A stretch of 64,000 nucleotides of DNA. It comes from Gammaproteobacteria bacterium. Lineage in GTDB: Bacteria; Pseudomonadota; Gammaproteobacteria; JAABTG01. The notes under the pieces were generated by a model. That model was not told the DNA's origin. It made no database searches and was given only the letters and a program-made list of their open reading frames with translations. Both the position numbers and the translations under genes were made by a program. Positions 1 through 20,916 of the stretch are shown piece after piece (the stretch's first letter is position 1; the number at the start of each line of letters is the position of its first letter). The stretch covers positions 514,549 to 578,548 of the forward strand of contig JAGNLM010000001.1 in assembly GCA_017999615.1 (NCBI GenBank), given 5' to 3'.

Positions 1-425
1 ACCTGCTGGACCCCGAGCCGGGAGACGTGGTCCTCGAGGTCGGCACGGGCTCCGGATACCAGGCGGCGGTTCTCTCCCGCGTGGTGTCGCGGGTGTATTC
101 GCTCGAGATCATCGAGGCCCTGGCGGTGCGGGCCTCCGAGCGGCTGGCGGCGCTCGGTTACCTCAATGTCGAGACGCGGGTCGGCGACGGGTATCACGGC
201 TGGGTGGAGCACTCGCCCTACGACGGGATCCTGGTGACCGCGGCCGCGCGGGCCGTTCCTCCCGCCCTGGTGGAGCAGTTGAAGCCCGGGGCGCGCCTCG
301 TGATCCCGGTGGGCGAGCCCTATCTGCCCCAGCGTCTCCTCCTGCTCCAGAAGGGGGAGGGGGGGCTGGTGTCGGAGACCGAGGTGCTTCCGGTGGCGTT
401 CGTGCCCCTCACCGGGGGCCACTGA
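1..425 (+). CDS. pcm: Protein-L-isoaspartate O-methyltransferase, C-terminal part (5' end outside window)
   Basis: The open frame runs into the left window edge and reads from base 3 to a TGA at 423-425, so only about 140 C-terminal residues are present; the usual length is about 210-220. The SAM-binding motif I is visible as VLEVGTGSGYQAAVL. Further on come the post-motif NVETRVGDGYHGW, the motif II-like YDGILVTAAA and the GARLVIPVG strand, in the order expected of PCMT. The family methylates isoaspartyl residues in damaged proteins, using SAM. In many proteobacteria pcm lies near surE and nlpD; that side is not visible here. The next gene is convergent, 7 nt away. Confidence 0.93.
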   Translation, partial: LLDPEPGDVVLEVGTGSGYQAAVLSRVVSRVYSLEIIEALAVRASERLAALGYLNVETRVGDGYHGWVEHSPYDGILVTAAARAVPPALVEQLKPGARLVIPVGEPYLPQRLLLLQKGEGGLVSETEVLPVAFVPLTGGH

Positions 426-432
426 GTCGGCC

Positions 433-1275
433 TCAGCGGGCGATGACGACCGGGCACCCGACGCGCTCGAGCAGCGCGGCGAACGCGGTTGCCTCGCAGA
501 GCGGGTGACCGGCTGGCAGAACCAGCAGGTGGCCGCCCGCGGCACGGACCTCCGCGGCGAGGGCCCCGGGGCTCTCCGAGGGGACCTCGTGGACCTTCGC
601 CTCCAGCCCCTGGGCGCGCAGGCGTGCCTCGACCTCGGAAGTGAGGCTCGGCGCTCGCCCCTGGGCCCGGGAGGGCACCAGGGCGACGAGATTCCGCCCG
701 TCCTCGCGCGCGAGCCGGCCGGCCACCGCCAGGGCCCGCAGGGCGGCCCCGGAGCCGTCGCAGAGGACGGCAACGGGTCGGCCCGGAACGGCGCCGGGTC
801 TGAGGAACGCCACGCTGCTCGGTGAGAGCTGCGCCACGGCACGGGCCGTGGACCCGAGGCTGCCGCCGATCGCGGGGTTGCCTCCCGCCGAGCCCATGAC
901 CACCAGGTCGACGCGCTCCGCGGCCTCGACGAGCTCCCGCGCGACGGCGCCGCGCGCCACCCGGAACGACCACCTCAGGTGCAGGCGCTCGGCCTCCCGG
1001 GCGAGAAGGTCGCGCAGCCGTGCCGCCTCCGCGCGCAGGGCCCGCGCCATCGTTTCCTCGTCGCGGGTCTCCGCGGCCGCAGGCCCCCACGCGCTCCGGG
1101 CGCCGAGCGGGAGCGAGGCGAGCCGCAGGAGGTTGGCGTCCTCGACGAAGAGGCCGAGCAGCTCGGCCTGAAGCTCGGCCGCCAGTGCAGCGGCAGCCGC
1201 CAGGGCCGCGCGGCCGCTGGCCGAGGCGTCCAGTGCCACCAGGATCCGTTCGAGGCCCCGCTCAGTCGGGCTCAT
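433..1275 (-). CDS. Universal stress protein UspA-family protein
   Basis: 280 residues. The N-terminus (about residues 8-150) has a UspA beginning, RILVALDASASGRAAL, and an ATP-type loop with VVMGSAGGNPAIGGSLGSTA, the G-2x-G-9x-G(S/T) region that closes a Usp domain. The second half (about 165-280) is a weaker Usp-like repeat ending LLERVGCPVVIAR, the normal Usp C-terminal strand, so this looks like a tandem-Usp protein with a degenerate second domain. The 5' end overlaps the stop of the upstream Lon-like protease gene by 14 nt, so the two are probably co-transcribed and both serve stress survival. The specific stress cannot be read from sequence. Confidence 0.85.
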   Translation of the reverse strand: MSPTERGLERILVALDASASGRAALAAAAALAAELQAELLGLFVEDANLLRLASLPLGARSAWGPAAAETRDEETMARALRAEAARLRDLLAREAERLHLRWSFRVARGAVARELVEAAERVDLVVMGSAGGNPAIGGSLGSTARAVAQLSPSSVAFLRPGAVPGRPVAVLCDGSGAALRALAVAGRLAREDGRNLVALVPSRAQGRAPSLTSEVEARLRAQGLEAKVHEVPSESPGALAAEVRAAGGHLLVLPAGHPLCEATAFAALLERVGCPVVIAR

Positions 1276-3685
1276 CTTCCTCGGAAACGCCCCTCAGCGC
1301 CGTGGCGTAGGTCTGGGCGAGCACCGTCAGCTCCGCCAGCCTCGCTTGCACCCGTCCGTTCACCGTGTCCGGCGGGTAGAGGCCATCCCCGTCGGGCTCG
1401 CCCGCGGGCAGGCCGGTCAGCAGCTCCACCGCCTCGTCCACGGTGCTCACGGGGTACACGGCGAAGCTCCCGGCCTCCGCCGCCTCCACGACGTCCCGCC
1501 GCAGCATCAGGTGTTTGACGTTGGCGGCCGGGAGCAGGACCCCCTGCCGGGAGTCGAGGCCCTGCAGGCGGCAGACCTCGTAGAAGCCCTCGATCTTCTC
1601 GTTGACGCCGCCGACCGCCTGCACGTCCCCGCGCTGATTCACCGACCCCGTCACCGCGAGCGACTGGCGGACCGGGAGGTCCGCGAGCGCGGAGAGAAGG
1701 GCGCACGCCTCGGCGAGTGAGGCGCTGTCGCCCTCCACCATGGCGTAGGACTGCTCGAAGGCGAGGCTCGCGGAAAAGGACAGCGGCTGGTTGCGCCCGA
1801 AGCGGCGAGCGAGGAAGTGGGAGAGGATGAGCACCCCTTTTGAGTGGATGGCCCCGCCCAGCTCGACCTCGCGTTCGATGTCGACGACCTTCCCGTCGCC
1901 GAGCCGGGCGGTCGCCGTGATCCGGGAGGGCTGGCCAAAGGCGTAGTCGCCGAGTTGGATGACTGAGAGGCCGTTCACCTGGGCAACGGCGCTGCCCCGG
2001 GTGTCGATGACGAGAGTCCCCCGCCGAATGTCGTCCTGGACCCTTTCGCGCACCCTGCTCGAGCGGTGCTCCCGGGCATCCACGGCGCGCTGCACGTCGT
2101 CGGCGCGGACCTGGCCGCGCCCGGCCTCCCCGGCCCAGTAGTCCGCCTCCCGTAGCAGATCGGCCACCCGTTGCAGGGCGGTGGAGAACCTCTCGGTGTC
2201 CGCCGCCAGCCGCCCGCTCTCCTCGAGGACCCGGGCCACGGCGTCCCGCTCGAGAGGCCGCAGGCCCTCGTGCCGGGCCACCGAGGCGAGGAGTCGCGCA
2301 TATTCGAGTTGCGTGTCGTCCGTGCGCTCGATCTCCTCGTCGAAGTCGGCGAGGACCTTGAAGAGCTCGGAGAACTCGGGGTCGAGGTATTGCAGCGCGT
2401 AGAAGAGCGCGCGGTCCCCCACCAGCACCACCTTCGCATCGAGGGGTATGGGCTCGGGCTCGATCGACACCGTGCTGATGAGGCTCAATATCTCGCCGAG
2501 GGACTCGATCCGGATGCTGCGCGCGGACAGGGCGCGCTTCAGCCCCTCCCATGCGTAGGGGGCCATCAGCACCTTGCGTGCATCCAGCACCAGATACCCG
2601 CCGTTGGCCCAGTGCAGCGCCCCGGGCTTGACCAGCGTGAAGTCCGTGGCCAGGGTTCCCATCTGCGCGACGTGCTCGGCGCGGCCGATGAGGTTCTGGT
2701 AGATGGGATTGTCCTCCACGACCACGGGAGCCCCGGGGCTGCGGCCGTGGTCCACGAGGAGATTCACGCGGTAGCGCCGGAAGGAGGGGCCCCCGCCACC
2801 CCCGAAGACGAGAAACGCCGGGCGCTCTTCGTCCGACTTGCGAAAATCGTCCACGTTCTCGACGACGTCCTGCCCCACGGCGTCGAGATAGGCGAGGACC
2901 TGGGGAAGCTCCGCGTAGGCCTTGCGCAACTCGTCGATGAGGTGGCCGACGGCGAAGCGGGCCACTTCCCGGTTGAGCTCCTTCAGCTTGGCGCGGGTCT
3001 CCTTCTGCCAACCGGGTACCCGCGCGAGCAGGCGCTTGAGCTTCTCCTGAAGCGCCGCCACCGCCTGCTCGACCCGGGCCTGTTCATCCTTCGGCAGCTT
3101 CTCGAACTCGGCGGGTGAGAGCACCTCCCCGTCCCTCACGGGACCGAAGGCGAAGCCCGTCGGGGTGTGGATGAGGGCGATGCCCTGTTGGTTCGCCTCG
3201 TGACCGAGCTCGCCGAAGGCCTGGCTCTGCCGCTCCTTGAACTCCTCCTCGATCTCCTGCACCCGCGTCCTGTAGGGGTCGCTCTCGAAGGCGGAGGGGA
3301 CCGCGCTGCGCAGGTCCTCGAGCAGCTGCACCATGTCCTGGCGCAGGGCTGCCCCCCGTCCCGGGGGCAGGCGCAGGGCGACGGGCCGGTGGTGCTGCGC
3401 GAAGTTGTGCACGTAGCACCAGTCGGACGGCACCGGCGCCGTGCGGGCGCGCTCTTCGAGGACCCGGCGGACGACCTCGTGCTTGCCCAGGCCGGGCGGC
3501 CCCAGCACGAACAGGTTGAAGCCGGGCTGACGGATCCCGGTGCCGAAGCGCAGGGCGTCCATGGCGCGCTTCTGGCCCACGACGGTCTCCGGGTCCGGTA
3601 GCTCGTCGGTGGATGCGAACGGCAGGGATTCGGGGTCGCAGCGGCGATGGAGCCGCTCGGGAGGGAGAGGACCTGGGGCGGTCAT
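1262..3685 (-). CDS. Lon-like ATP-dependent protease (AAA_32/Lon_C family)
   Basis: 807 residues from an ATG at 3685. The frame stays open further upstream, but that stretch is antisense to the next gene and is low-complexity. The Walker A-like loop FVLGPPGLGKHEVV lies near residue 65. A long insertion and coiled-coil-like segment follows (about 130-300), then the AAA sensor region. The C-terminal Lon-type serine protease has the catalytic Ser in VEGDSASLAEACALL and the Lys in GGVNEKIEGFYEVC. This domain order and length match the gammaproteobacterial Lon-related YcbZ-type proteins rather than classical Lon, as there is no LON substrate-binding N-domain. It probably degrades misfolded or regulatory proteins in the cytoplasm. 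The downstream Usp gene overlaps it by 14 nt. Confidence 0.9.
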   Translation of the reverse strand: MTAPGPLPPERLHRRCDPESLPFASTDELPDPETVVGQKRAMDALRFGTGIRQPGFNLFVLGPPGLGKHEVVRRVLEERARTAPVPSDWCYVHNFAQHHRPVALRLPPGRGAALRQDMVQLLEDLRSAVPSAFESDPYRTRVQEIEEEFKERQSQAFGELGHEANQQGIALIHTPTGFAFGPVRDGEVLSPAEFEKLPKDEQARVEQAVAALQEKLKRLLARVPGWQKETRAKLKELNREVARFAVGHLIDELRKAYAELPQVLAYLDAVGQDVVENVDDFRKSDEERPAFLVFGGGGGPSFRRYRVNLLVDHGRSPGAPVVVEDNPIYQNLIGRAEHVAQMGTLATDFTLVKPGALHWANGGYLVLDARKVLMAPYAWEGLKRALSARSIRIESLGEILSLISTVSIEPEPIPLDAKVVLVGDRALFYALQYLDPEFSELFKVLADFDEEIERTDDTQLEYARLLASVARHEGLRPLERDAVARVLEESGRLAADTERFSTALQRVADLLREADYWAGEAGRGQVRADDVQRAVDAREHRSSRVRERVQDDIRRGTLVIDTRGSAVAQVNGLSVIQLGDYAFGQPSRITATARLGDGKVVDIEREVELGGAIHSKGVLILSHFLARRFGRNQPLSFSASLAFEQSYAMVEGDSASLAEACALLSALADLPVRQSLAVTGSVNQRGDVQAVGGVNEKIEGFYEVCRLQGLDSRQGVLLPAANVKHLMLRRDVVEAAEAGSFAVYPVSTVDEAVELLTGLPAGEPDGDGLYPPDTVNGRVQARLAELTVLAQTYATALRGVSEEDEPD

Positions 3686-3795
3686 GGTCTCATCTGCCGC
3701 AATCGCGTCGCCTTCAATGTACCACGGGGCCCGGAGTCCGGCGCCGGCCCGGGGCAGAGGGTGGCGGGGCGGCGGGTGGCTGGGCGTTCGGGGGG

Positions 3796-4944
3796 TCAGC
3801 GGGGCCGGGCGTAGTGCCGGCGGAGGACCTCCCGCGTGAAGGCGGTCCGCAGGTAGAAGCCGCGCGGGTTCGTCCAGACAGGGGCTCCGTCCTCGCCGAC
3901 CCCTCGACAGAGGGTCCGCGAGCTCGCGGCCTTGGGACGCGCCTGCAGGAACGTACCGGCTCGCGCAGAGAGCTCCCCGAGACGGCCGAGACAGACCATC
4001 TCCATCAGCTCCTCCCAGTCCGCCCGCAGCGTTTCCTCCAGGTCCGGCTCCAGGGACCAGAGGAGAGGGCTGCCGATTCGGCGTGCCCCCACGGGGATCC
4101 CCCGGTCGGCCTCGATGGGCACCCAGAGCACCCGGGCGAGCTTGCGCCGGACCCAGCTGGCCTCCCACGTCTCGGCGCACGCACCCTCGAGGGGGACGGT
4201 GCACACGTAGGTGGACTCGAGCGGCGCACCGTCCCTTCCGACGGGCAGTGTCTTCAGCTCGATCCCCAGCGCCCGGAAATCGGGCTCGGCGAGCGACCCC
4301 GCGTCCGCGCCAAGCCACGCCTCGACGAGCTGTCCCGCCCAGCCCTTGGCCCGACGAAGGTCGGGGGGGGCCGCCAGCCCGAACGCCCGGCCGAGCTCCT
4401 CGAGCCGCCGGCCGGCCAGCCCCTCCGCCCGCTTCAGGAGCTCCCCCTCGGTGCGCGGCGCGGGTGTTGGCGACCGGGGGCAGCCCTCTGCCGCGCGTGG
4501 GGGGCGCTCGCGGGGATCGGGGTGTTCCTTCGCGACCCAGCCCTGGACGTGTAGCGTGACGGACGCGGGTCCGGCGGTGGTGTCTCCACCCACCAACTCG
4601 AGTCCGGCCCGTGCCGCGAGCTCGAGGAGGGTCCCGCTGAAGGCCTCGACCCACTCCACGTCCGGGGTTGGCAGGGTGATCGCGAGCGTGAGCCACGCCG
4701 GTGTCCCACCGGCTGCCGCGAGCCTCGCGAGGGCCTCCTCGAGCACGCCGTGGGCCCACTCGGCCGGGGGCGGTAGCCCGGAGTCCGGAGTCTCGACCGA
4801 CCGGCTCGCCCCCGCGACCACCGCCTCGGTGTCGGGAGGAAGCATCAGGACTGCGGCATCGTCCCCGATCCCCACGCGGACGTCCGCCCGCCGCCGGGAC
4901 CGGTCGAAATACCGCTCGATCAGGGCGAACTCGCTCAGGGACAC
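3796..4944 (-). CDS. mutH: Fusion: ThiL-like N-terminal domain + MutH mismatch-repair endonuclease
   Basis: 382 residues. Residues about 1-137 align end to end with the ThiL N-terminal (AIRS) domain: EFALIERYFDR (5-15), GIGDDAAVL (25-33), TPAWLTLAITLP (81-92), LVGGDTTAGP (117-126). The ThiL motifs DTLVAG(V/N)HF and NLSDLAAMG are missing; the equivalent stretches read AGASRSVETPDSG and EEALARLAAAGG. Residues about 164-382 are MutH. The catalytic set known from E. coli MutH (E56, D70, E77, K79, K116) is present at the same spacings as E208, D222, E229, K231 and K268. The family nicks unmethylated GATC when activated by MutL. E. coli MutH is about 230 residues with no such domain. The stop is 110 nt from the Lon-like gene's start. 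The ThiL-like part should be catalytically dead alone; its role is unknown. Confidence 0.88.
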   Translation of the reverse strand: MSLSEFALIERYFDRSRRRADVRVGIGDDAAVLMLPPDTEAVVAGASRSVETPDSGLPPPAEWAHGVLEEALARLAAAGGTPAWLTLAITLPTPDVEWVEAFSGTLLELAARAGLELVGGDTTAGPASVTLHVQGWVAKEHPDPRERPPRAAEGCPRSPTPAPRTEGELLKRAEGLAGRRLEELGRAFGLAAPPDLRRAKGWAGQLVEAWLGADAGSLAEPDFRALGIELKTLPVGRDGAPLESTYVCTVPLEGACAETWEASWVRRKLARVLWVPIEADRGIPVGARRIGSPLLWSLEPDLEETLRADWEELMEMVCLGRLGELSARAGTFLQARPKAASSRTLCRGVGEDGAPVWTNPRGFYLRTAFTREVLRRHYARPR

Positions 4945-4987
4945 GCGGGGACGCGCGCCCGGTGCCGGCGCGGGCGGGGGGGGAGCC

Positions 4988-5350
4988 TCAGTGGCTCTCG
5001 TGACAGAAGACCGAGCGCATCGCGACCATCAACGACAGGACGCGCTGATCGCGGATGCGGTACAGGACCTGGTTTCCCCGTTTGCGGTTTCCGAGCACTC
5101 CGCGCTCCAGCATGTGCGCCAGATGCTGGGAGACGTTGCTCTGGGACGTCTGCTCCACCCGGTTCGTGAGCTCCTGCACCGAGACCTCGCCCCCGCCGAT
5201 GAGGCAGAGCAGCCGCAGGCGCAGGGGGTGCGCCATCGCCTTGACGGCGTGCGCCGTGCGATGGAGCTCCCACTCCTCCATGTCGAGGCCTCTGCCGGCG
5301 TCCAGGGCCGGCAATGGCAAGGACTGCGCTTCGGACTCCTGCGTCCCCAT
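4988..5350 (-). CDS. ArsR-family winged-helix transcriptional regulator
   Basis: 120 residues. The ArsR/SmtB core begins at about residue 30 with AVKAMAHPLRLRLLCLI. The helix-turn-helix follows with VSVQELTNRVEQTSQSNVSQHLAHMLERGVL, and the wing with GNRKRGNQVLYRI. There is a single Cys in the alpha-3 region (LLCLIG, about 49) and one near the C-terminus (FCHESH). Classical arsenic/metal-sensing CxC or DxH patterns are not evident, so the signal is unclear; a redox signal such as sulfide sensing is possible but unproven. The start ATG at 5350 lies just downstream of an AT-rich palindrome that could be its own operator. It is transcribed towards, but 43 nt before, the ThiL-MutH gene, so it could also control that gene. 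Confidence 0.88.
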   Translation of the reverse strand: MGTQESEAQSLPLPALDAGRGLDMEEWELHRTAHAVKAMAHPLRLRLLCLIGGGEVSVQELTNRVEQTSQSNVSQHLAHMLERGVLGNRKRGNQVLYRIRDQRVLSLMVAMRSVFCHESH

Positions 5351-5399
5351 GGTCTACGCCCCCGTGGATTCGGGTTGGGCCGCCCGGGCCCGAATTAAC

Positions 5400-5428
5400 C
5401 TTTAATAAAGATCCAGTAGGCTGTGTAA
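5400..5428 (-). promoter_or_regulatory. Candidate promoter/operator of the arsR-type gene
   Basis: On the minus strand TTACAC (5428-5423) is followed after 17 nt by TTAAAG (5405-5400), a weak -35/-10 pair. The -10 lies inside a perfect 11-bp palindrome, CTTTAATAAAG (5400-5410), in an otherwise very GC-rich region. A palindrome over the -10 is what an autorepressing ArsR protein would need. The match to consensus is modest. Confidence 0.35.
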
Positions 5429-5540
5429 GGGAATGCCTGTACGCTGTCAAGGGCGCGGCGCATCGCGCTCCGGCCTCGCGCCGGACGTGGCACCCGGGGC
5501 AGGGAACTGGGATGGGCGCGGATGCCGCGCCGGCGGGGCG

Positions 5541-6197
5541 TCAGCCGTCCCGATCGAGATTGCGGAAGAAGAGCCCCATGACGCGCTGCACGTAGGTCTG
5601 GGTCTCCCCGTACGGAGGGACCTGGTTTCCGTGCTGTTCCACCGCACCCTCCCCGGCGTTGTAGGCGGCCAGGGCGAGCTTCAGGTTCTGGAAACGGTCC
5701 AGCAGCTCGCGCAGGTAGCGCACGCCGCCGTGGACGTTCTGTTCCGGGTCCCAGGGGTCTGCGACCCCGAAGCGTCGCGCAGTCCCGGGCATGAGCTGCA
5801 TGAGGCCCATGGCTCCAGCCCGGGACAGGGCCTCCGGGTCGTAGTTGGACTCGGCGGTGATCACGGCGTGGACCAGTGCGGGGCTCACGCCCCAGCGCTG
5901 CGAGGCCTCGTGCACGAGGGGCGAGAACTCCTTCGAACCGGACGAGCGTTTACTCGCCGGGCGGGCCCGCAGGGCCGCGCGCGCCTCCGCCAGCCCCGTC
6001 GGCACGGCGGGCTTCGCCTCCGAGCGCATGAAGAGCTTGTATCCCGGGTGCGAGGGCTTGTCCGTGAAGTGGACCGTGCCGCGCGGGTCCACGTAGCGGT
6101 AGATGTCGGCACGAGCCTGGGACGAAAAGAGGAAAAGGGCTGCGGCGCAACCGAGCCCGGTCAGCGCAGCGGTGCGGAGAATCCGGTTATCCACCAT
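5541..6197 (-). CDS. Lytic murein transglycosylase with DUF4124 domain (SLT family)
   Basis: 218 residues with an N-terminal signal peptide (about residues 1-30: hydrophobic TALTGLGCAAALFLF, cleavage near SQARA). A DUF4124-like segment follows (DIYRYVDPRGTVHFTDKPS, about 31-50), then a linker, then the SLT domain from about 92. The catalytic Glu is in ITAESNYDPEALSRAGAMGLMQLMP, and the typical AAYNAGEGAV lies near 185. The family cleaves peptidoglycan between MurNAc and GlcNAc in the periplasm, forming 1,6-anhydroMurNAc. The SLT plus DUF4124 arrangement is common in gammaproteobacteria. It lies upstream of the arsR gene with about 190 nt between them, so probably a separate transcription unit. 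Confidence 0.92.
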   Translation of the reverse strand: MVDNRILRTAALTGLGCAAALFLFSSQARADIYRYVDPRGTVHFTDKPSHPGYKLFMRSEAKPAVPTGLAEARAALRARPASKRSSGSKEFSPLVHEASQRWGVSPALVHAVITAESNYDPEALSRAGAMGLMQLMPGTARRFGVADPWDPEQNVHGGVRYLRELLDRFQNLKLALAAYNAGEGAVEQHGNQVPPYGETQTYVQRVMGLFFRNLDRDG

Positions 6198-6370
6198 GCG
6201 TGATCCACCCCCCGATGGCTCACGGAGACCTCAGCCAGCGCGCGGAAGAGTGTAGTACGAAAGCGCCCCGGTTTCTCGCCGCGCTTCCCGTGGGGGCGCG
6301 AGCCGTGGTCCCCATGGTTCCTGGTCTATGCAGCTGTAGCGGCCGGTGGGTCGAAAGCTCGATATGCCAA

Positions 6371-7342
6371 TCACGCCGGTACGGGTGGCGCGGCCGCCAG
6401 GTTGAAGTGCTCGTAACCGTGGGGCAAGGCCAGGGGTGCGCCGCCCGGGCCGTGACAGGCGAGGCCGGGTGTGGCGACGATACGGCCGATCCGGGTCACC
6501 AAGACGCCGGCCTTGCGTGCCGCCCGGGAGACCTCGTCCTGGCGCCCCGCGGGTGCCGTGAAGAGCAGTTCGTAGTCGTCCCCGCCCCCCAGCGCCAACC
6601 GCCAACCGCTCACCGGATCCAGCGCCGCGCGCAGGGTCTCGGAGAGCGGCAGGCGGGCGGCCTCTACCTCGGCGCCCACGCGGCTCGCGGCCAGCACGTG
6701 CCGCAGGTCCGGGACCAGCCCGTCGGACACGTCGATCGCCGCACTCGCCAGCCCACGAAGCGCGAGGCCCAGTGCGACGCGGGGCTCGGGCCGGTCCAGC
6801 CGGTCCCGCACCCGCGCGAGGACTGCGGGGGCCAGCGGGTGTCGGCCCCGGAGGATCTCGAGAGCAAAGGCCGCGTCGCCCAGGGTGCCGGACACGTACA
6901 CCTCGTCGCCCGGCTGCGCACCCCGGCGCAGGATGGTTGCGTCCTCCGGCACGTGGCCGTAGACCTCCACGGTGGCCCGGAGAGGGCCCAAGACGTGGTG
7001 TTCGGCGACCCGCCGCACCCCGTAGCGGCCCGCCAGCGTTTGCAGCCCCCGATGGAACTCCTCGAGCCAAGGGGCCGACGCCGGCAGGCTCAGAGCGACG
7101 CTGCAGGCCAGGGGGCTCGCGCCCATCGCGGCCAGGTCGCTCAGGTTCACGGCGAGCGCCTTGTGGCCGACGGCGGCCGCGGGGGTTTCGAGGGGAAAGT
7201 GGACCCCTGCCACCAGCGTGTCCACGGCGACGACCAGCGCGGCACCCGGGGGCACGCCGACCGCGCCCCAGGGGCGGGGCGCCTCCTGGCCGACTCCCGC
7301 CTGCGTTGCCCTTCGCGCGCCGGGTCCCGGGGGCAGGGTCAC
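6371..7342 (-). CDS. thiL: Thiamine-monophosphate kinase homologue lacking two active-site motifs
   Basis: 323 residues from a GTG at 7342 whose bases overlap the nusB stop as GTGA, so translation is coupled to nusB. Conserved ThiL elements are VDTLVAGVHF (D41), KALAVNLSDLAAMGA (66-69), the C-terminal YVSGTLGDAA, IDVSDGLVPDL (about 203-213), GGGDDYELLF (about 253) and the final HGYEHF. Two elements are absent. The first 30 residues are a Gly/Pro/Arg-rich stretch with no EFxLIxRYF or GIGDDA motif, and the expected GGDTTRGP reads AEHHVLGP (113-120). The other frames between the nusB stop and D41 do not encode the missing segment. ThiL phosphorylates TMP to TPP with ATP, using the lost Asp residues for Mg/ATP. 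The missing motifs are present in the ThiL-like domain at 3796-4944. Confidence 0.85.
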   Translation of the reverse strand: MTLPPGPGARRATQAGVGQEAPRPWGAVGVPPGAALVVAVDTLVAGVHFPLETPAAAVGHKALAVNLSDLAAMGASPLACSVALSLPASAPWLEEFHRGLQTLAGRYGVRRVAEHHVLGPLRATVEVYGHVPEDATILRRGAQPGDEVYVSGTLGDAAFALEILRGRHPLAPAVLARVRDRLDRPEPRVALGLALRGLASAAIDVSDGLVPDLRHVLAASRVGAEVEAARLPLSETLRAALDPVSGWRLALGGGDDYELLFTAPAGRQDEVSRAARKAGVLVTRIGRIVATPGLACHGPGGAPLALPHGYEHFNLAAAPPVPA

Positions 7343-7794
7343 TCCGGCTGGGAACCCCCGGTCTCGAGGGGGCGGAGCTGGCGCGCCAGCCGGTCGAGGG
7401 TCGCGTTCACGTAGCGGTGGCCCTGCTCGGCGCCGAAGAGGCGTGCGATGTCCACCGCCTCGTTGAGGACCACGCGGTAGGGGACCTCGGGGCGTTGCGC
7501 CAGCTCGTAGGCCGCGAGTCGCAGGATGGCCCGTTCCACCGGATCGACCTGGGCGAGCGGACGGTCGAGGAGGGGGGCGAGGAAGGCGTCCAGCTCGGCG
7601 ACGCGGGTGGGCACGCCGTGAACGAGCTCGTGAAAGTACTCGGTGTCCACCCGCCCCATGTCCTGCTCTTCCCGGAACTGGCGCTCGATGTCGGCCGGCT
7701 CCTGGGCCGTCATCTGCCACTGGTACACCGCCTGGAGCGCCGCGCGCCGGGCGTGTCGGCGGGCCTGGTGGCCGCGCCCGGCGGGAGGGCTCAT
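7339..7794 (-). CDS. nusB: Transcription antitermination factor NusB
   Basis: 151 residues, beginning at the ATG that overlaps the ribH stop as ATGA. Family features are [14 protein letters not shown] near residue 16, [46 protein letters not shown] and the C-terminal [16 protein letters not shown]. NusB with S10 (NusE) binds boxA in rRNA leaders and prevents premature termination. Its place between ribH and thiL is the standard proteobacterial order. Confidence 0.97.
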
Positions 7795-8267
7795 GGGGAG
7801 ATCTTGCGCAGGAGGCTGACCATCTCCATGGCGGAGAGCGCGGCCTCGGCGCCCTTGTTGCCGGCCTTCGTGCCCGCGCGCTCGATCGCCTGCTCGATGC
7901 TGTCGACCGTGAGCACACCGAACCCGATGGGGACGCTGTGCGCCAGGGTGACCTGGGCGAGGCCCTTGACCGTCTCCCCCGCCACGTACTCGAAGTGCGG
8001 CGTGCCCCCGCGGATGACCGCGCCGACGGCCACGATGGCGTCGAAGCGCCCGCTCGCCGCCAGGCGCTGGGCCGTGAGGGGGATCTCCCACGCGCCCGGC
8101 ACGCGCACGATGGTGACGTCGGAGCGGGCGACCCCGTGGCGGGTGAGGGCGTCCATGGCGCCGGTGAGCAGGTTCTCCACCACGAAGCTGTTGAAACGGC
8201 TCACGACGATCGCGAAGCGCGCACCCTCCGCGCGGAATTCGCCCTCGAGCATGGTCACGTCTGTCAT
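7791..8267 (-). CDS. ribH: 6,7-dimethyl-8-ribityllumazine synthase
   Basis: 158 residues from the ATG at 8267, preceded by a strong GGGAGGGG ribosome-binding site; an in-frame ATG 18 nt further up lacks one. Conserved elements are [18 protein letters not shown] (N-terminal), [15 protein letters not shown], the loop [15 protein letters not shown] with the catalytic His, and [13 protein letters not shown] at the end. The family condenses 5-amino-6-ribitylaminouracil with dihydroxybutanone phosphate in icosahedral or pentameric assemblies. It follows ribBX and overlaps nusB by 4 nt. Confidence 0.97.
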
Positions 8268-8281
8268 CGTCCCCTCCCGCC

Positions 8282-9400
8282 TCACTCAGGCTGACCGGTC
8301 ACGTACCCCACCACCTCCAGACCGAAGCCCGAGATGGCGTGCATCTTCTTCGGGGCGGACAGAACCCGCATCTGCCGCACACCGAGGTCCAGCAGGATCT
8401 GGGCTCCGACGCCGTAGGTCCGGAGATTCTCTCCCGGCTCGCGGCGCGCGATCTCCTCGCCGTGGTCCCGGTCCCGGTAATGGAGCACCCGCTGCAGCAG
8501 GTCCTCGGAATCCTCGTGCTGGCGCAGGACCACCACGATGCCGGAGCCGGTCTCGGAGATGTGGTGCATCACGTCGCTCAGCGGCCAACCGCACTCTTCG
8601 CGCTGGCTGTCGAACAGGTCGCAGAGGCTGTCCTGGATGTGCACGCGCACCAGCGCAGGCTCCTTCGGCGAGACCTGTCCCATGGCGAGGGCGAAGTGCG
8701 CGACGCCGGTCCCCGTCTCGCGATAGGCGACCAGGCGGTAGCGGCCGAACTTTGTCGGCATGTCGCACTCGGCCACACGCTGGACGGTCTTCTCGTTCAT
8801 CATCCGGTAGCGGATCAGGTCGGCGATGGTCCCGATCTTGATCCCGTGCACTCGGGCGAATTCCTCCAGATCGGCACGGCGCGCCATCGTCCCGTCTTCC
8901 TTCATGACCTCGACGATCACCGCCGCCGGCTCGAGCCCGGCGAGTCGCGTCAGGTCGCAGCCGGCCTCGGTGTGGCCCGCGCGGGTCAGGACCCCGCCCG
9001 GCTGGGCCATGATGGGGAAGACGTGCCCGGGGTGGACCAGGTCGCTCGGGCGCGCGTCGGGGGCCACCGCCGCGCGAACGGTCGTGGCCCGGTCGGCCGC
9101 CGAGATGCCGGTGGTCACGCCGCGGGCGGCCTCGATGGTGACGGTAAAGTTCGTGCGGTGCGCGTCCGAGGTCTCGCGCACCATCAACGGGAGCCGCAGC
9201 TGCTCGCAGCGCTCGCGGGTGAGCGTGAGGCAGATGAGCCCCCGTCCGTGCCGGGCCATGAAGTTGATGTCCTCGGGCCGGACGAGGGAGGCCGCCATGA
9301 TCAGGTCGCCCTCATTCTCCCGGTCCTCGTCGTCCATGATGAGCACCATGCGGCCGGCGCGGATGTCTTCGATGATGTCTTCGATGGTGTTGAAATCCAT
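8282..9400 (-). CDS. ribB: RibBX: 3,4-dihydroxy-2-butanone-4-phosphate synthase with degenerate GTP cyclohydrolase II-like tail
   Basis: 372 residues. The N-terminal RibB domain (1-205) has the acidic metal-binding [13 protein letters not shown] (about 22-34), and later [10 protein letters not shown] and [11 protein letters not shown] with catalytic residues. The C-terminal half resembles RibA, with fragments [16 protein letters not shown] and [16 protein letters not shown], but lacks the zinc triad. Where active RibA has HSECLTGD...RCDCG, this protein reads [19 protein letters not shown], so GTP cyclohydrolase II activity is not expected. This matches the RibBX variant described in Proteobacteria. 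A true ribA must lie elsewhere. The gene sits 44 nt after ribE and 14 nt before ribH. There is no room for an FMN riboswitch upstream. Confidence 0.92.
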
Positions 9401-9444
9401 GGTTTCCGGATCCGTGCTCGGGTGTGCCGCCGGAGCCGCCGCGT

Positions 9445-10101
9445 CTACTTCACGAAGCCGTGGCGGGCCAGCAGTTCCAGGGTCACGCCGCCAGCGGGCT
9501 CCGCGGCGCGGTCGCCCAGGAGGAGGCGTTCCAGGTGGCGGGCGATCACGTCGACCTCCAGGTTCACCGGGCGCCCCGGCTGGTACTGGTCGATCGTGGT
9601 CCCCTGGATGGTGTGGGGGACGATGTTGAGATCGAAGCGGGCGCCTTCCACGCGGTTCACGGTCAGGCTGACCCCGTCGACCGCGATGGAGCCCTTTTCG
9701 GCGATGTAACGGGCGAGCTCCCGAGGGGCCTCGATCACGAAGCGCACCGACCGCGCCTCGGGGCGGCGCTCCAGGACCCGGCCGACGCCGTCCACGTGGC
9801 CCGCGACCAGGTGGCCCCCGAGCCGGCTGGTGGGTGTCAACGCCTTTTCCAGGTTGACCGGGTCGCCGGGCCGCAGCGCCCCGAGGGTCGTCCGGGACAG
9901 GGACTCCGCCGACACGTCCGCCCAGAACCCGTCGCCGGGAAGCTCGACCGCGGTGAGGCACACCCCGTTCACGGCGATGCTGTCACCGACCCGCACGTCG
10001 CCGAGGTCGAGGCCGCCCGCGGCCACCCGCAGACGCGCGTCGCCTCGCCGGTCCTCCCGCGCGAGCACCCTGCCGACGGCCTCGATGATGCCGGTGAACA
10101 T
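9445..10101 (-). CDS. ribE: Riboflavin synthase, alpha chain
   Basis: 218 residues starting MFTGIIEAVGRV, the invariant family N-terminus. Two lumazine-binding repeats are visible: SIAVNGVCLTAVEL with LGGHLVAGHVDGVG (first), and SIAVDGVSLTVNRVEGARFDLNIVPHTIQGTTI (second). The enzyme dismutates two 6,7-dimethyl-8-ribityllumazine molecules to riboflavin. It starts 8 nt after the ribD stop, in the rib operon. Confidence 0.97.
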   Translation of the reverse strand: MFTGIIEAVGRVLAREDRRGDARLRVAAGGLDLGDVRVGDSIAVNGVCLTAVELPGDGFWADVSAESLSRTTLGALRPGDPVNLEKALTPTSRLGGHLVAGHVDGVGRVLERRPEARSVRFVIEAPRELARYIAEKGSIAVDGVSLTVNRVEGARFDLNIVPHTIQGTTIDQYQPGRPVNLEVDVIARHLERLLLGDRAAEPAGGVTLELLARHGFVK

Positions 10102-10109
10102 GCCTTGGG

Positions 10110-11231
10110 CTACGGGACGGAGGGCCGGGCCGTGACGCGCCAGTCGTTGCCGATGGCGCGAACCTCCAGGATCTCCAGTCCGACGGCCTCCTCCATCCGC
10201 TCCAGCCCGGGCAAGCGGAACAGGCCGCGGGCGTCCGACCCCAGGATCTTCGGTGCCACATACAGGACCAGTTCGTCCACCAACCCGGCCCGCAGCATGG
10301 ACCCGCTCAGCGTTGCCCCCGCCTCCAGCAGCATCTCGTTGACCTCCTCTTCCTGCGCCAGGTAGTGGAGCAGGGGCAGCAGGTCGATGCCGTCGCTGTG
10401 CCCCGGGAATCGTATCACCTCGGCCGTGCCGTCGATAATCGCCTCGGGGACCTCCTCGTCCGGGCAGCAGGTCGCGATCAGGGTACGGCCCGGCACCGTG
10501 AGCATCCTTGCGCTCGGGGGCGTGCTGAGGCGGGGGTCGAGGACCACCCGCAAGGGTTGGCGCCAGCCCCCCGGGGGCGGAGGCTCCCCGAGGTCCGCGG
10601 CCCGTACGGTCAGGGACGGGTCGTCGGCGAGCACGGTGCCAATCCCGGTCAGGATCGCGGCGCTGCGCGCGCGCAGGCGCTGCACGTCCCGGCGGGCCTC
10701 GGGCCCCGTGATCCAGCGGCTCTCCCCCGAGGCCATGGCGGTGCGGGCGTCCAGGCTCATGCCGAGCTTGGCCCTTACGTACGGCCGGCCGTGCGTCATC
10801 CGCATCACGAAACCGGGGTTGAGGGCGCGGGTCTGCGCCTCGAGCAGACCGCACTCCACGGTGACCCCGGCGGACCGCAGCCGGGCGAGCCCCGCCCCCC
10901 GGACGAGGGGATTGGGGTCCTCCATGGCCACCACCACCCGTGTGACGCCTGCCGCGGCCAGCGCCTCGGTGCAGGGCGGCGTGCGGCCGTGGTGCGCGCA
11001 GGGCTCGAGCGTCACGTAGGCAGTGGCGCCTGCGGCCCGTGGGCCGGCGGCGCGCAGCGCCAGGACCTCCGCGTGGGGCTCGCCCGCGCGCTCGTGCCAG
11101 CCTTCACCCACGACCGCACCGTCCCGTACCAGCACGCAGCCGACGCGGGGGTTGGGCTCCGTCGTGTAGAGCCCGCGCTCCGCGAGGCGCAGGGCGCGAC
11201 CCATGTGGCCGTGGTCGTCGCCGGAGAACAT
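10110..11231 (-). CDS. ribD: Bifunctional diaminohydroxyphosphoribosylaminopyrimidine deaminase / 5-amino-6-(5-phosphoribosylamino)uracil reductase
   Basis: 373 residues. The N-terminal zinc deaminase has PHAEVLAL and LEPCAHHGRTPPCTEALAAAGV (His plus two Cys ligands and the catalytic Glu). The C-terminal reductase has RPYVRAKLGMSLDARTA, GIGTVLADDPSLTVR and a closing LEILEVRAIGNDWRVTA. It performs the second and third steps of riboflavin synthesis. It begins 10 nt after the nrdR stop. Confidence 0.97.
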   Translation of the reverse strand: MFSGDDHGHMGRALRLAERGLYTTEPNPRVGCVLVRDGAVVGEGWHERAGEPHAEVLALRAAGPRAAGATAYVTLEPCAHHGRTPPCTEALAAAGVTRVVVAMEDPNPLVRGAGLARLRSAGVTVECGLLEAQTRALNPGFVMRMTHGRPYVRAKLGMSLDARTAMASGESRWITGPEARRDVQRLRARSAAILTGIGTVLADDPSLTVRAADLGEPPPPGGWRQPLRVVLDPRLSTPPSARMLTVPGRTLIATCCPDEEVPEAIIDGTAEVIRFPGHSDGIDLLPLLHYLAQEEEVNEMLLEAGATLSGSMLRAGLVDELVLYVAPKILGSDARGLFRLPGLERMEEAVGLEILEVRAIGNDWRVTARPSVP

Positions 11232-11241
11232 GGGTGCGGGG

Positions 11242-11745
11242 CTAACGCTCCTCCGGCAGCAGGGGCAGCTGTTGCTTCCTCTGCTCGGGGGAGAGGGTGT
11301 GCTGGAGGCGCTCGACCTCGTCCCGGAAATCCTGCAGGTCCTGGAACTTGCGGTAGACCGAGGCGAAGCGCACGTACGCCACCTGGTCGAGCCCGCGCAG
11401 CTCGTCCATGACCCACTCGCCGATGGTGCGGCTCGCGATCTCCCGCTCCGGGTGGGCGATCAGGCGCTTCTTGATGCGGCTCACCGCCCGCTCCAGGTCG
11501 TCGGCCCCCACCGGCCGCTTCTCCAGGGCCCGCGCCATGCCGGCCCGCAGCTTCTCCTCGAGGAAGGGCTGGCGGCTGCCGTCCGATTTCACGACCCGCG
11601 GCAGGCTCAGCTCGACGGTCTCATAGGTGGTGAAGCGCTCCTTGCACTCCAGACACTCGCGCCGGCGCCGCACCGAGTCGCCCTCGCCCCCGAGGCGCGA
11701 ATCCACCACGCGGGTATCGGGCGCTCCGCAGAAGGGGCAGCGCAC
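11242..11745 (-). CDS. nrdR: Transcriptional repressor NrdR
   Basis: 167 residues, slightly longer than the usual 150 or so. The N-terminal zinc ribbon is [17 protein letters not shown] with [12 protein letters not shown]. The ATP-cone follows: [19 protein letters not shown], then [17 protein letters not shown] and a final [18 protein letters not shown]. NrdR senses (d)ATP and represses ribonucleotide reductase genes at NrdR boxes. The glyA-nrdR-ribD order is classical. Confidence 0.97.
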
Positions 11746-11751
11746 CGCGCC

Positions 11752-13011
11752 TTACGCCGGGGAGTAGACGGGGAATCTCTCGCAGAGGGAGAGCGCCTGC
11801 TGCCGGACCCGGGCGATGACCGCCTCGTCGCGGACGTCGTCCAGGATGTCGCACATCCAGCCGGCCAGCTCCCGACACTCTGCCTCGCAGAACCCCCGGG
11901 TCGTCACGGCGGGTGTGCCCGCGCGGATCCCGCTCGTCACCATCGGCGGCTGCGGGTCCCCGGGAATGGCATTCTTGTTGACCGTGATGTTGGCCCGCCC
12001 CAGGGCGGCGTCGGCCTCCTTCCCGGTGACTCCCCGGGCCACCAGGTCGAGCAGGAACAGGTGGTTGTCCGTACCTCCCGAGACCACCTTGAACCCGCGT
12101 TCCAGGAACGCCCCCGCCATGGCCCGGGCGTTGCTCACCACCTGCCGCGAATACTCGCGGAAGCCCGGCTGGAGCGCCTCCTGGAGGGCCACCGCCTTGG
12201 CGGCGATCACGTGCATCAGGGGCCCACCCTGGGTCCCGGGGAAGACCAGTGAGTTGAACTTCTTCTCCAGTTCCGGGTTGGAGCGGGCGAGGATCAGTCC
12301 CCCGCGGGGTCCCCGCAGGGTCTTGTGGGTGGTGGTGGTCACCACGTCCGCCACCGGTACCGGGCTCGGGTAGAGGCCGCTCGCCACGAGGCCCGCCACG
12401 TGGGCCATGTCGACGAAGAGGTACGCGCCGACCGCGTCGGCGATCGCCCGGAAGCGCTCCCAGTCCACGATACGGGAGTAGGCCGAGAACCCGGCCACGA
12501 TCATCTTCGGCCGGTGCTCGAGCGCGAGGCGCTCCACCTCGGCGTAGTCGATGAGCCCGGTGTCCCGCTCCACCCCGTACTGGACGGCGCGGTAGATCTT
12601 GCCGGAGAAATTCGGCTTGGCCCCATGGGTGAGGTGGCCGCCTGCGTCGAGGCTCATTCCCAGGATGGTGTCGCCGGGGCTGAGCAGCGCCATGTAGACG
12701 GCGGCGTTGGCCTGCGAGCCGGAGTGGGGTTGGACGTTGGCGTAGGCCGCGCCGAAGAGGGTCTTGGCCCGCTCGATGGCGAGCCGCTCCGCGACGTCGA
12801 CGAACTCGCAGCCGCCGTAGTAACGCTTCCCGGGGTAGCCTTCCGCGTACTTGTTGGTCAGCACCGAGCCCTGGGCTTCGAGCACCCGGGGGCTGGCGTA
12901 ATTCTCGGAGGCGATGAGCTCGATGTGCTCCTCCTGGCGCCGGCGCTCGGCTCTGATGGCGGCGGCGAGCTCGTCATCGAAGCCCGCGATGGTCATGTCG
13001 CTCGAAAACAT
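11752..13011 (-). CDS. glyA: Serine hydroxymethyltransferase
   Basis: 419 residues from the ATG at 13011, which has GAGGG about 7 nt upstream; an upstream in-frame ATG at 13035 has no comparable site. Conserved features are [13 protein letters not shown] (about 35), [47 protein letters not shown] and the PLP lysine in [16 protein letters not shown]. It interconverts serine and glycine with transfer of a one-carbon unit to tetrahydrofolate. It heads the rib cluster and is divergent from ettA, across 152 nt in which no clear promoter was recognised. Confidence 0.98.
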
Positions 13012-13163
13012 GGTTTTCCCTCGATTGCCAGGCACCAGGACGGCCAGATCGTGAGCCTGGAAGTCTACCAGAGGGGCGCCCCACCCTGCAGCGGCGGTCT
13101 AGGGACAGGCCTGGCGGTCTGTGCGATCATGGCGCCCGAATTCGGCGAGACTCGGCGGTCCCA

Positions 13164-14831
13164 ATGGCGCAATTCATCTACACCATGAACCGGGTGGGCA
13201 AGGTCGTGCCCCCCAAGCGGGAAATCCTGAAGGACATCTCGCTCTCCTTCTTCCCCGGGGCGAAGATCGGGGTGCTCGGTCTGAACGGATCCGGCAAGTC
13301 GACCTTGCTCCGGATCATGGCGGGGGTCGACACCGAGATCCTCGGCGAGGCCCGGCCCCAGCCGGGGATCCGGATCGGGTACCTGCCCCAGGAGCCGCAG
13401 CTCGACCCCGCGAAGGACGTTCGCGGAAACGTGGAGGAGGCGCTCGCGGCGCTCAAGCAGGCACAGGAGCGGCTGGACGCGGTGTACGCCGCGTATGCCG
13501 AGCCGGACGCCGACTTCGAGGCCCTGGCTGCCGAGCAGGCCCAGCTCGAGAACCTGATCCACGCGGCCGACGCGCACGACCTGGACCGCCGCCTCGAGGT
13601 GGCCGCCGACGCCCTGCGCCTGCCGCCCTGGGACGCCGACGTCACCCGACTCTCCGGCGGCGAGCGGCGGCGCGTGGCGCTCTGCCGGCTGCTCCTCTCC
13701 ACTCCGGACATGCTCCTGTTGGACGAGCCCACGAACCATCTGGACGCCGAATCGGTCGCCTGGCTCGAGCGGTTTCTCCAGGAGTACCCGGGAACCGTGG
13801 TGGCGGTCACCCACGACCGGTATTTCCTCGACAACGTGGCCGGCTGGATCCTGGAGCTCGACCGCGGCCGCGGGATCCCCTGGGAGGGCAACTACTCCTC
13901 CTGGCTCGAGCAGAAGGAGCGCCGGCTCGAGGTGGAGGAGAAGCAGGAGAGCGCCCGCCAGAAGGCGATGCTGTCCGAGCTCGAGTGGGTGCGCGCGAAC
14001 CCCAAGGGCCGGCACGCCAAGAGCCGGGCCCGGATCGCGCGGTTCGAGGAGCTGTCCTCCCAGGAGTACCAGGCGCGAAGCGAGACGAAGGAGATCTACA
14101 TTCCGCCGGGGCCGCGACTGGGCGACCTGGTGGTGGAGGCGGTCGACCTGAAGAAGGGCTTCGGCGACCGGCTTCTCATCGACGGGCTCTCGTTCAACCT
14201 CCCGCGCGGGGGCATCGTCGGGGTCATCGGTCCGAACGGGGCCGGCAAGACCACGCTGTTCCGGATGATCACCGGGCGCGAGGCGCCCGACGGCGGCGAG
14301 CTGCGGGTGGGACCCACCGTACAGATCGCCTACGTGGACCAGAGCCGTGACTCCCTGGAGGGGAGCAAGACGGTGTGGGAGGAGATCTCCGACGGCCAGG
14401 ACATCATCGTGGTCGGCAAGTACGAGGTGCCGTCCCGCGCCTACGTGGGGCGCTTCAACTTCAAGGGCCCCGACCAGCAGAAGCGGGTGGGCGACCTCTC
14501 GGGGGGTGAGCGCAACCGCGTCCACCTCGCGAAGCTGCTGAAGAGCGGCGGCAACGTCCTGCTGCTGGACGAGCCCACCAACGACCTCGACGTGGAGACC
14601 CTGCGGGCGCTCGAGGAGGCACTGCTGGCGTTTCCGGGCTGCGCCGTGGTCATCTCCCACGACCGCTGGTTCCTCGACCGCATCGCGACCCACATCCTGG
14701 CCTTCGAGGGTGAGAGCCAGGTCGTGTGGTTCGAGGGCAACTACGCCGACTACCACGCCGAGCTCAGGCGGCGCAAAGGCGAGGACGCCGACCAGCCGCA
14801 CCGGATCAAGTACCGGCGCCTGGTCCCGTGA
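13164..14831 (+). CDS. ettA: Energy-dependent translational throttle ATPase EttA (ABC-F)
   Basis: 555 residues, the normal EttA length. There are two ABC cassettes: Walker [10 protein letters not shown] (39-47) and GPNGAGKTT (about 354), signatures [16 protein letters not shown] and [15 protein letters not shown], and Walker [12 protein letters not shown] and [11 protein letters not shown]. The N-terminus [15 protein letters not shown] and the arm/linker with [18 protein letters not shown] are EttA-like. The family binds the ribosomal E site and gates entry into elongation according to ATP/ADP. The stop overlaps the GTG start of the next gene (GTGA). Confidence 0.97.
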
Positions 14832-15733
14832 GCGAGCCCGATTGGGCGGGAGTCCTGGCGGCCCTGGACGGGCTCGTGGCGAGGCTCGAGCACCTGGTGC
14901 CCGGCCCGCCGCCTCCCGTGGACTGGGACCTGTACCGCGCGTTCCGCTGGCGGCGCGAGAGGGGGCGCGGGTTCCTCGAGGCGGTTCGCCACCCCCACCG
15001 CGTGCGGCTCGAGGACCTGCGGGGCGTGGACGCCCAGAAGGCGGCGCTGCTCCGCAACACCCGCCAGTTCCTCGCCGGGTTGCCCGCCAACAACGCGCTG
15101 CTCTGGGGCGCCCGGGGCACGGGCAAGTCGTCGCTCGTCAAGGCGCTGCTCGAAGAGCTCTGGGGCGAGGGGCTGAGGCTCGTCGAGGTGGACGCCCACG
15201 CGCTCGTCGACCTGCCGGACGTCGTAGCGGCGCTGGACGCCCGGGCCGAGCGCTTCATCCTGTTCAGCGACGACCTCTCGTTCGAGGCGGGTGACCCGAG
15301 CTACAAGGCGCTCAAGGCCGCCCTCGACGGCTCGGTCGCGGGGCTGCCGGAGAACGTGTTGATCTACGCGACCTCCAACCGCCGGCACCTGATGCCGGAG
15401 TACTTCCAGGACAACCTGGAGGCCCGCACGGTGGACGGCGAGATCCACCCCGGCGAGGGGGTGGAGGAGAAGATCTCGCTCTCCGAGCGCTTCGGTCTCT
15501 GGCTCTCCTTCTACCCCTTCGGTCAGGAGGACTACCTGGAGATCGCGGGGGCCTGGGTGGCCCGTCTGGGCGCAGGGGAGGAGGACCCGGAGGACCTGCG
15601 CCGGGAGGCCCTGCGGTGGGCGCTGGCGCACGGGTCGCGCAGCGGGCGCTCCGCCTGGCAGTTCGCCCGGGACCGCGTGGGGCGCCGCGCTCTTGCCGCC
15701 CCCGCCGGCGGCCGGGCCGAAGAGGAGCGGTGA
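14828..15733 (+). CDS. DUF815-family P-loop ATPase
   Basis: 301 residues from a GTG at 14828, overlapping the ettA stop by 4 nt (translational coupling). The P-loop is [18 protein letters not shown] (about 95-112), Walker B-like [11 protein letters not shown] (about 143), and a sensor-like [18 protein letters not shown] (about 175). The end contains [22 protein letters not shown], typical of the family. The AAA-like DUF815 (PF05673) proteins are widespread in proteobacteria but of unknown function. Coupling to ettA and the phosphoribosyltransferase gene is the only clue to its role. Confidence 0.88.
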
Positions 15734-15736
15734 GCC

Positions 15737-16300
15737 ATGGTGAGCGCCGTGCCCACCCCCGAGGAGGTCCGCCGGGTCCAGCAGGAGGCGGACCTCCTGC
15801 ACTCGGAACGGGACGTGGAGGCGGCCCTCGACGGGATGGCCGCCGCGATGACCGAGCGTCTGGCCAAGCTCGACCCCCTGCTACTCGGGGTGATGGTGGG
15901 CGGCATGGCGCCGCTCGGCTGCCTGCTCCGGCGGCTCCCCTTCCCGCTGCAGGTGGATTACCTGCACGCGACGCGCTATCGCGGCGGGGTCCGGGGCGGG
16001 GGGCTCGAGTGGCGGGCAAGACCGGCGACGCCCCTCTCGGGCCGGGTGGTCGTGGTGGTGGACGACATCCTGGACGAAGGGCTGACCCTCACGGAGATCC
16101 TCGACTGGTGCCGGGGGGCCGGTGCCGCCCGGGTCCACAGCGCGGTCCTGGTGCACAAGCGGCACGACAGAAAGCCCGGGTTGCGCCGGGCCGACTTCAC
16201 GGGGCTCGAGGTGCCCGACCGCTACGTCTTCGGGTACGGAATGGACTACCGCGGCTACCTGCGCAACGCCCCCGGCATCTTCGCCGTCCGGGGGCTGTGA
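15737..16300 (+). CDS. Hypoxanthine-guanine phosphoribosyltransferase-like protein
   Basis: 187 residues. The PRPP-binding motif is VVVVVDDILDEGLTLTEIL (about 112), with upstream LLGVMVGGMAPLGCLLRRL (the flexible-loop side) and downstream VLVHKRHDRK and VFGYGMDYRGYLRNAPGIFAV, the base-recognition end typical of HPRTs. It should convert hypoxanthine or guanine with PRPP into IMP or GMP. It begins 3 nt after the DUF815 gene and is followed 22 nt later by a thioinosine phosphorylase that would yield hypoxanthine, so the pair forms a salvage route. Confidence 0.9.
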   Translation: MVSAVPTPEEVRRVQQEADLLHSERDVEAALDGMAAAMTERLAKLDPLLLGVMVGGMAPLGCLLRRLPFPLQVDYLHATRYRGGVRGGGLEWRARPATPLSGRVVVVVDDILDEGLTLTEILDWCRGAGAARVHSAVLVHKRHDRKPGLRRADFTGLEVPDRYVFGYGMDYRGYLRNAPGIFAVRGL

Positions 16301-16322
16301 CCGGTCGGGGGGAGGAGGGCGC

Positions 16323-17066: not shown

Positions 17067-17087
17067 ATGGCGGCAGAGCCGCCTCGG

Positions 17088-18626: not shown

Positions 18627-18632
18627 GACGCC

Positions 18633-20916
<2,284 letters not shown>

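Follow-up and report, generated by a model that had tools for sequence, protein, structure and literature searches.

A probable two-subunit TMP kinase in which the ATP half-site of ThiL is fused to MutH

The residues that form the active site of ThiL, the thiamine-phosphate (TMP) kinase that completes the synthesis of the vitamin B1 cofactor, are divided, in the window (the whole stretch of 64,000 nucleotides analysed here), between two genes. Neither chain holds both halves: the ATP half-site is absent in ThiL-A, and the TMP/metal half-site is absent in ThiL-B, a ThiL N-terminal domain (ThiL-N) fused to the mismatch-repair protein MutH. We consider it likely, with a probability of roughly 0.85, that TMP kinase is here an obligate heterodimer, in which ThiL-A pairs with ThiL-B to form a single composite site, and that MutH rides on the ATP subunit. 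As the full site is found in neither chain, the pair is classed – on residue content – as a two-subunit variant of ThiL, and the MutH part as an ordinary MutH.

The fusion gene (3796..4944; like all window features described below it lies on the minus strand) is an open reading frame of 382 aa that begins with GTG at 4944. Its product comprises a ThiL N-terminal domain (residues 1-138; 4531..4944), a free linker (residues 139-161; 4462..4530) and a complete MutH (residues 162-382; 3799..4461). Pfam places the N-terminal AIRS domain at residues 27-130 (E=5.8e-13) and MutH at 211-309 (E=2.2e-29), and PDB matches are to MutH (6e-72) and, over residues 1-147, to Stenotrophomonas ThiL (5.8e-22). 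The cut-offs of both NCBIfam MutH equivalogs (NF003458 and TIGR02248) are exceeded, with 294.3 bits against 243 for one and 258.7 against 229.9 for the other, whereas the match of residues 5-141 to thiL (TIGR01379) reaches 81.6 bits against a cut-off of 184.15, since the N domain alone is present. A sequence-only reading of this DNA had recognised a ThiL-like N-terminal domain fused to MutH, and these matches, together with the orthologue in a second genome, bear it out; the same reading took the first 137 residues for the ThiL N domain, correctly as to identity, although the domain ends near residue 138.

Two ATP-site motifs are intact in the fusion: the GIGDD loop (residues 25-29; 4858..4872), which aligns with G28, D29 and D30 of Pseudomonas aeruginosa ThiL, and GGDTT (residues 119-123; 4576..4590), which aligns with G121, D122 and T123. 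The stretch TPAWLTLAITLP, also cited earlier as a ThiL signature, does resemble ThiL, yet the catalytic D75 that would precede it has been lost. The catalytic set claimed for the MutH part is complete: E208, D222, E229, K231 and K268 fall in invariant alignment columns and correspond to E56, D70, E77 and K79 (plus K116) of Escherichia coli MutH. An AlphaFold model shows two folded domains joined by a linker whose pLDDT falls below 50 at residues 142-155, and Foldseek matches the domains to MutH and ThiL structures.

The fusion recurs end to end, at 92% identity, in a second species of the genus (G001). Codon-level comparison of this copy with that of the window's genome (G000) gives dN/dS values of 0.20 for ThiL-N, 1.3 for the linker (residues 139-161) and 0.035 for MutH: ThiL-N is under purifying selection, MutH strongly so, and the linker is not. 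No in-frame ATG, GTG or TTG lies between codons 118 and 247 of the fusion (118 and 230 in G001), and the whole of MutH therefore cannot start at the linker. Judged from the reading frame, MutH of this genus is made only within the whole fusion protein or together with part of the ThiL domain. Beyond G000 and G001 no other ThiL-N::MutH fusion was found in 370 genomes of the class or among the best 80 loci of a wider contig search, which may omit records of the window's own genome; within the genomes and best loci searched, the architecture is confined to one genus.

A second, complementary ThiL, which the earlier reading had overlooked, lies 1.4 kb from the fusion. ThiL-A (6371..7342; 323 aa) occupies the usual place of thiL after nusB (7339..7794, start approximate), its GTG start overlapping the nusB stop (GTGA). 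Alignment shows the TMP half-site of ThiL-A to be intact: VDTLVAGVHF (D47, H54) at 7196..7225, NLSDLAAMGA (D75) at 7118..7147, IDVSDGLVPDLRH (D211, S213, D214, D219, H222) at 6698..6736, and also GGDDYELLF. The ATP half-site is lost: the N-terminal helix (helix 1) and the GDD loop are missing, and AEHHV (6992..7006) stands where GGDTT is expected. The fusion is the mirror image of this, having kept GIGDD and GGDTT and lost D47, H54, D75 and the entire C-terminal domain. Both genes are under purifying selection. The AlphaFold model of ThiL-A (pLDDT 85.7, residues 1-22 disordered; this model and that of the fusion are of single chains) superimposes on the structures 8yku and 5cm7 (PaThiL and AbThiL) with TM scores of 0.80-0.85. 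In ThiL-A of G001 (L026, 12210-13736) the loop that follows LSLPA is lengthened by 28 inserted residues, which ThiL-A of the window does not have.

ThiL-A scores 266.9 bits against TIGR01379, well over the cut-off of 184.15, the match beginning at profile position 30, and an annotator would therefore call it active by itself. This amounts to an annotation trap: the profile gives the name thiamine-phosphate kinase to a catalytically incomplete protein, and the ATP half may be labelled MutH only.

The pattern of loss follows the geometry of published ThiL structures, from which the residue roles used here are taken (PMC13254938, PMC6416309). Active sites of ThiL span the dimer interface (PMC13254938). 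In P. aeruginosa ThiL the ATP side comprises helix 1, Gly28, Asp30, Gly121, Asp122 and Thr123, and the other protomer contributes Ser45', Asp47', His54', Asp75', Tyr189', Asp211', Asp214', Asp219' and His222' (PMC13254938); in Acinetobacter baumannii ThiL one molecule binds ATP/ADP and the other TMP/TPP (PMC6416309). Both enzymes are described as homodimers (PMC13254938, PMC6416309). The losses of ThiL-A are those of the ATP side of this published site, and the losses of the fusion are those of the TMP side.

Complementary loss extends well beyond the window. The survey comprised 26 A copies and 26 B copies from four families (f1, that of the window, f100, f2 and f44), with 33 ordinary ThiL sequences for comparison. 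Positions are numbered as in P. aeruginosa ThiL; a profile of 12 ordinary relatives matches this numbering at the checked positions, which can thus be read directly. D29 and D30 are kept together in none of the A copies and in all 26 B copies, and D47 and D75 in all 26 A copies and no B copy, counts that are descriptive, the sorting into A and B having rested partly on these two pairs. The remaining positions are for that reason independent evidence: none of the 26 A copies has G121 together with D122, and none has helix 1, whereas all 26 B copies have both features, and H54, D211, S213, D214, D219 and H222 are each kept in 26/26 A. Each pair is retained by 30-33 of the 33 ordinary ThiL sequences. 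Position 122 is still D (or N) in eight of the 26 A copies, never together with G121. Along the N domain, positions that are kept alternate with positions that are lost (29/30 in B; 47, 54 and 75 in A; 121/122 in B), a pattern that simple truncation or domain decay does not explain.

A B copy was found in 25 of the 26 genomes with an A copy; none was found in G383, an f100 genome that is 81% complete. In the 25 genomes with both copies, G000 included, all checked catalytic positions of ThiL are present between the two proteins. The pair is shared by all f1 genomes that yielded a ThiL (G000, G001, G003 and G004) and by the 17 genomes of f100 save G383, and it occurs in f2 (G005, G150) and in f44 (G047, G174, G263). 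Most other families, checked on account of weak or partial matches, have an ordinary full-length ThiL. In f52, two loci (L253 in G055 and L254 in G266) encode a full-length ThiL homologue without nearly all of the catalytic positions (GDD, D47, D75, GGD, SDG). Another genome, G379 (L129, C1:3790000-3804000), has two copies of ThiL-N near ThiL-A (3001-3390 and 6958-7344, minus strand), and MutH is matched there in part only (5919-6245).

The reaction that we propose for the pair, TMP + ATP -> TPP + ADP, would be carried out jointly by the two diverged ThiL paralogues. ThiL-B (fusion residues 1-138) would supply the ATP half – helix 1, the GDD loop and GGDT – and ThiL-A the TMP/metal half, that is D47, H54, D75, D211, S213, D214, D219 and H222. 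A and B would pair by way of their N domains, as the protomers of a ThiL homodimer do; as the sites of the homodimer are already built across the interface, an A:B dimer would have one complete and one dead site. The C-terminal domain of ThiL-B, having served the TMP half only, would then have been free to decay, and in the window's genus loss of this domain and of the stop codon would have fused ThiL-N with mutH, its neighbour in the same orientation. MutH itself, tethered by a flexible linker, probably keeps its ordinary Dam/MutL-dependent nicking of GATC. Since half-ThiL stands alone elsewhere, always with an ATP-deficient ThiL-A, the primary job of ThiL-B is most likely that of a TMP kinase subunit, with MutH as its passenger.

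Gene order supplies a plausible history. The order nusB, thiL-A, lytic transglycosylase, thiL-B, mutH is common to the window and much of f100, the transglycosylase lying at 5541..6197 in the window, between thiL-A and the fusion. thiL-B is directly upstream of mutH in 15 of 17 f100 genomes and in both unfused f1 genomes. Several states of the B copy can be distinguished: an unfused B of full length, upstream of mutH, whose C domain has decayed (G003, G004, G376, G382 and G384); a bare ThiL-N, in most of f100, as a stand-alone gene of about 150 aa adjoining mutH; and the fusion (G000, G001). In G387 the stop of ThiL-N abuts the ATG of mutH (TGAATG). In f44 ThiL-N is away from mutH; the stand-alone copy of G047 (L142, 4844-5404), for example, lies by a DAHP-synthase-like gene on the opposite strand. 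Given these intermediate stages in relatives, the fusion can be read as the end of a series that would run from duplication through complementary loss and loss of the dead C domain to loss of the stop.

A tree of ThiL-A, full-length ThiL-B and ordinary ThiL, in which bootstrap support is not fully settled, unites the B copies of f1 and f100 in one clade (97/82) and the A copies of f1 with twelve A copies of f100 in another (96/98). An ordinary ThiL joins the A copies of f2 (95/85), and f44 is placed on its own. From these separate placements the split of ThiL probably arose more than once.

Composite sites of this kind have parallels. In PurL (FGAM synthase), a member of the same superfamily, an asymmetric AIRS pseudo-dimer has one catalytic site and one that is not; there the duplication is internal to one chain, whereas in the window two genes are involved and each subunit holds one of the two halves, ATP or TMP. 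Soluble guanylate cyclase, a heterodimeric class III cyclase, represents the passage from a homodimer with two trans sites to a heterodimer with one composite site and complementary losses, although its fold and reaction are unrelated and no subunit of it has been halved and fused to a DNA-repair nuclease. With ordinary ThiL (TIGR01379; 5dd7, 8yku, 3c9t) the pair shares fold, motifs and a trans-interface active site, and ThiL-A scores as ThiL; ordinary ThiL is, however, a homodimer with two equivalent sites, an arrangement against which the sequences of the pair speak, while in the window each half is encoded by a gene of its own and neither protein is complete. The MutH part resembles known MutH (NF003458, TIGR02248; 1azo, 2aor) in being full-length, in having all catalytic residues and in belonging to a genome with Dam, but differs in bearing an N-terminal half-ThiL and in having no start codon of its own. 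No relevant description of a MutH/ThiL fusion, or of a heterodimeric or split ThiL, was found in open-licence PMC papers.

ThiL, a proposed drug target, is regarded as a homodimeric enzyme encoded by a single gene. In the genomes described here the half-sites are on two genes, and the stages are preserved: a full-length, half-dead partner, a half-protein, and a half-protein fused to a DNA-repair enzyme. The passage from homodimer to obligate heterodimer becomes directly testable, and the A and B copies offer natural separation-of-function proteins for the mechanism of ThiL.

The metabolic context is consistent with the enzyme being required. All four f1 genomes with the pair have ThiC and ThiE, and no thiamine pyrophosphokinase match was found in the genomes searched, so that TPP salvage by that enzyme is rejected. 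The pathway thus needs a TMP kinase (ThiE is present and no alternative was found): without a working one the cell would make TMP, not TPP. Apart from the pair, the AIRS/ThiL superfamily is matched in the window's genome by SelD, HypE and PurM only, and a third ThiL is therefore rejected. A further f1 genome, G002 (85% complete), has ThiE and gave no match to ThiL, MutH or ThiC, which reflects either missing sequence or real loss.

The alternative closest to the heterodimer accepts the TMP kinase and adds a real coupling, in which the tether lets TPP/ATP status or the stoichiometry of the subunits affect mismatch repair. It is in keeping with an adjacency of thiL-B and mutH that is older than the fusion, and with the ArsR-type regulator common to f1 members. 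In the window this ArsR/SmtB-type gene lies directly upstream of the fusion (4988..5350), a position conserved upstream of thiL-B in G003 and G004; it is possible that it regulates the fusion operon, and shared regulation of thiamine and repair functions, which the sequence-only reading had offered as one option, is likewise possible. Adjacency alone, however, suffices for a fusion, ThiL-N of f44 is not near mutH, and the linker is not conserved; we regard coupling through the tether as unlikely. No TPP riboswitch or other Rfam element was found in window positions 1-20000. A more specific form would have ThiL-A bind the ThiL-N arm of MutH, so that occupancy of the site by ATP, TMP or TPP, or competition for the arm, alters the recruitment of MutH or its nicking. 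This we think quite unlikely; were it true, mismatch repair would respond to thiamine status, and cofactor synthesis and DNA repair would be physically linked.

The other option offered by the sequence-only reading – that a nucleotide-binding domain has been recruited to mismatch repair – is disfavoured. Under it ThiL-N would be an ATP/TPP-sensing or regulatory domain of MutH and kinase activity would reside in ThiL-A alone, as might be suggested by the physical fusion to an intact MutH, by ATP-site motifs that could bind nucleotide, and by a ThiL-A that passes the thiL equivalog cut-off. Yet ThiL-A is without helix 1, GDD and GGD in all 26 copies, the linker is unconstrained, and half-ThiL, always paired with such an ATP-deficient ThiL-A, is a separate gene in f100 and remote from mutH in f44; its conservation is therefore independent of MutH, and recruitment appears very unlikely.

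It is highly improbable that ThiL-B is a decaying pseudogene kept as the start of mutH while ThiL-A does the work. The C-terminal domain is indeed lost or degenerate, and with no internal mutH start translation through ThiL-N is forced in the window's genus; but ATP-site residues persist in 26/26 B copies, also where mutH is separate or elsewhere, and the dN/dS of ThiL-N is 0.20. That an assembly, frameshift or binning artefact has joined two genes, as draft assemblies of many contigs might allow and as the sequence-only reading had itself considered, has a negligible chance and is ruled out in practice by G001, the same fusion in two genomes being accompanied by continuous synteny and clean codon-level selection.

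Of the mismatch-repair partners of MutH, Dam is present in six of six genomes tested and MutL in G001, G003 and G004, which favours the proposed reading; G000 gave no MutL match, which speaks against it, although a contig gap there may be responsible. The window shows no depletion of GATC: base composition predicts 169 sites and 320 are seen. A large gene on the strand of the fusion (1262-3700), just downstream of it, has a translation that reads, from the open reading frame only, as a Lon-related AAA+ protease-like protein.
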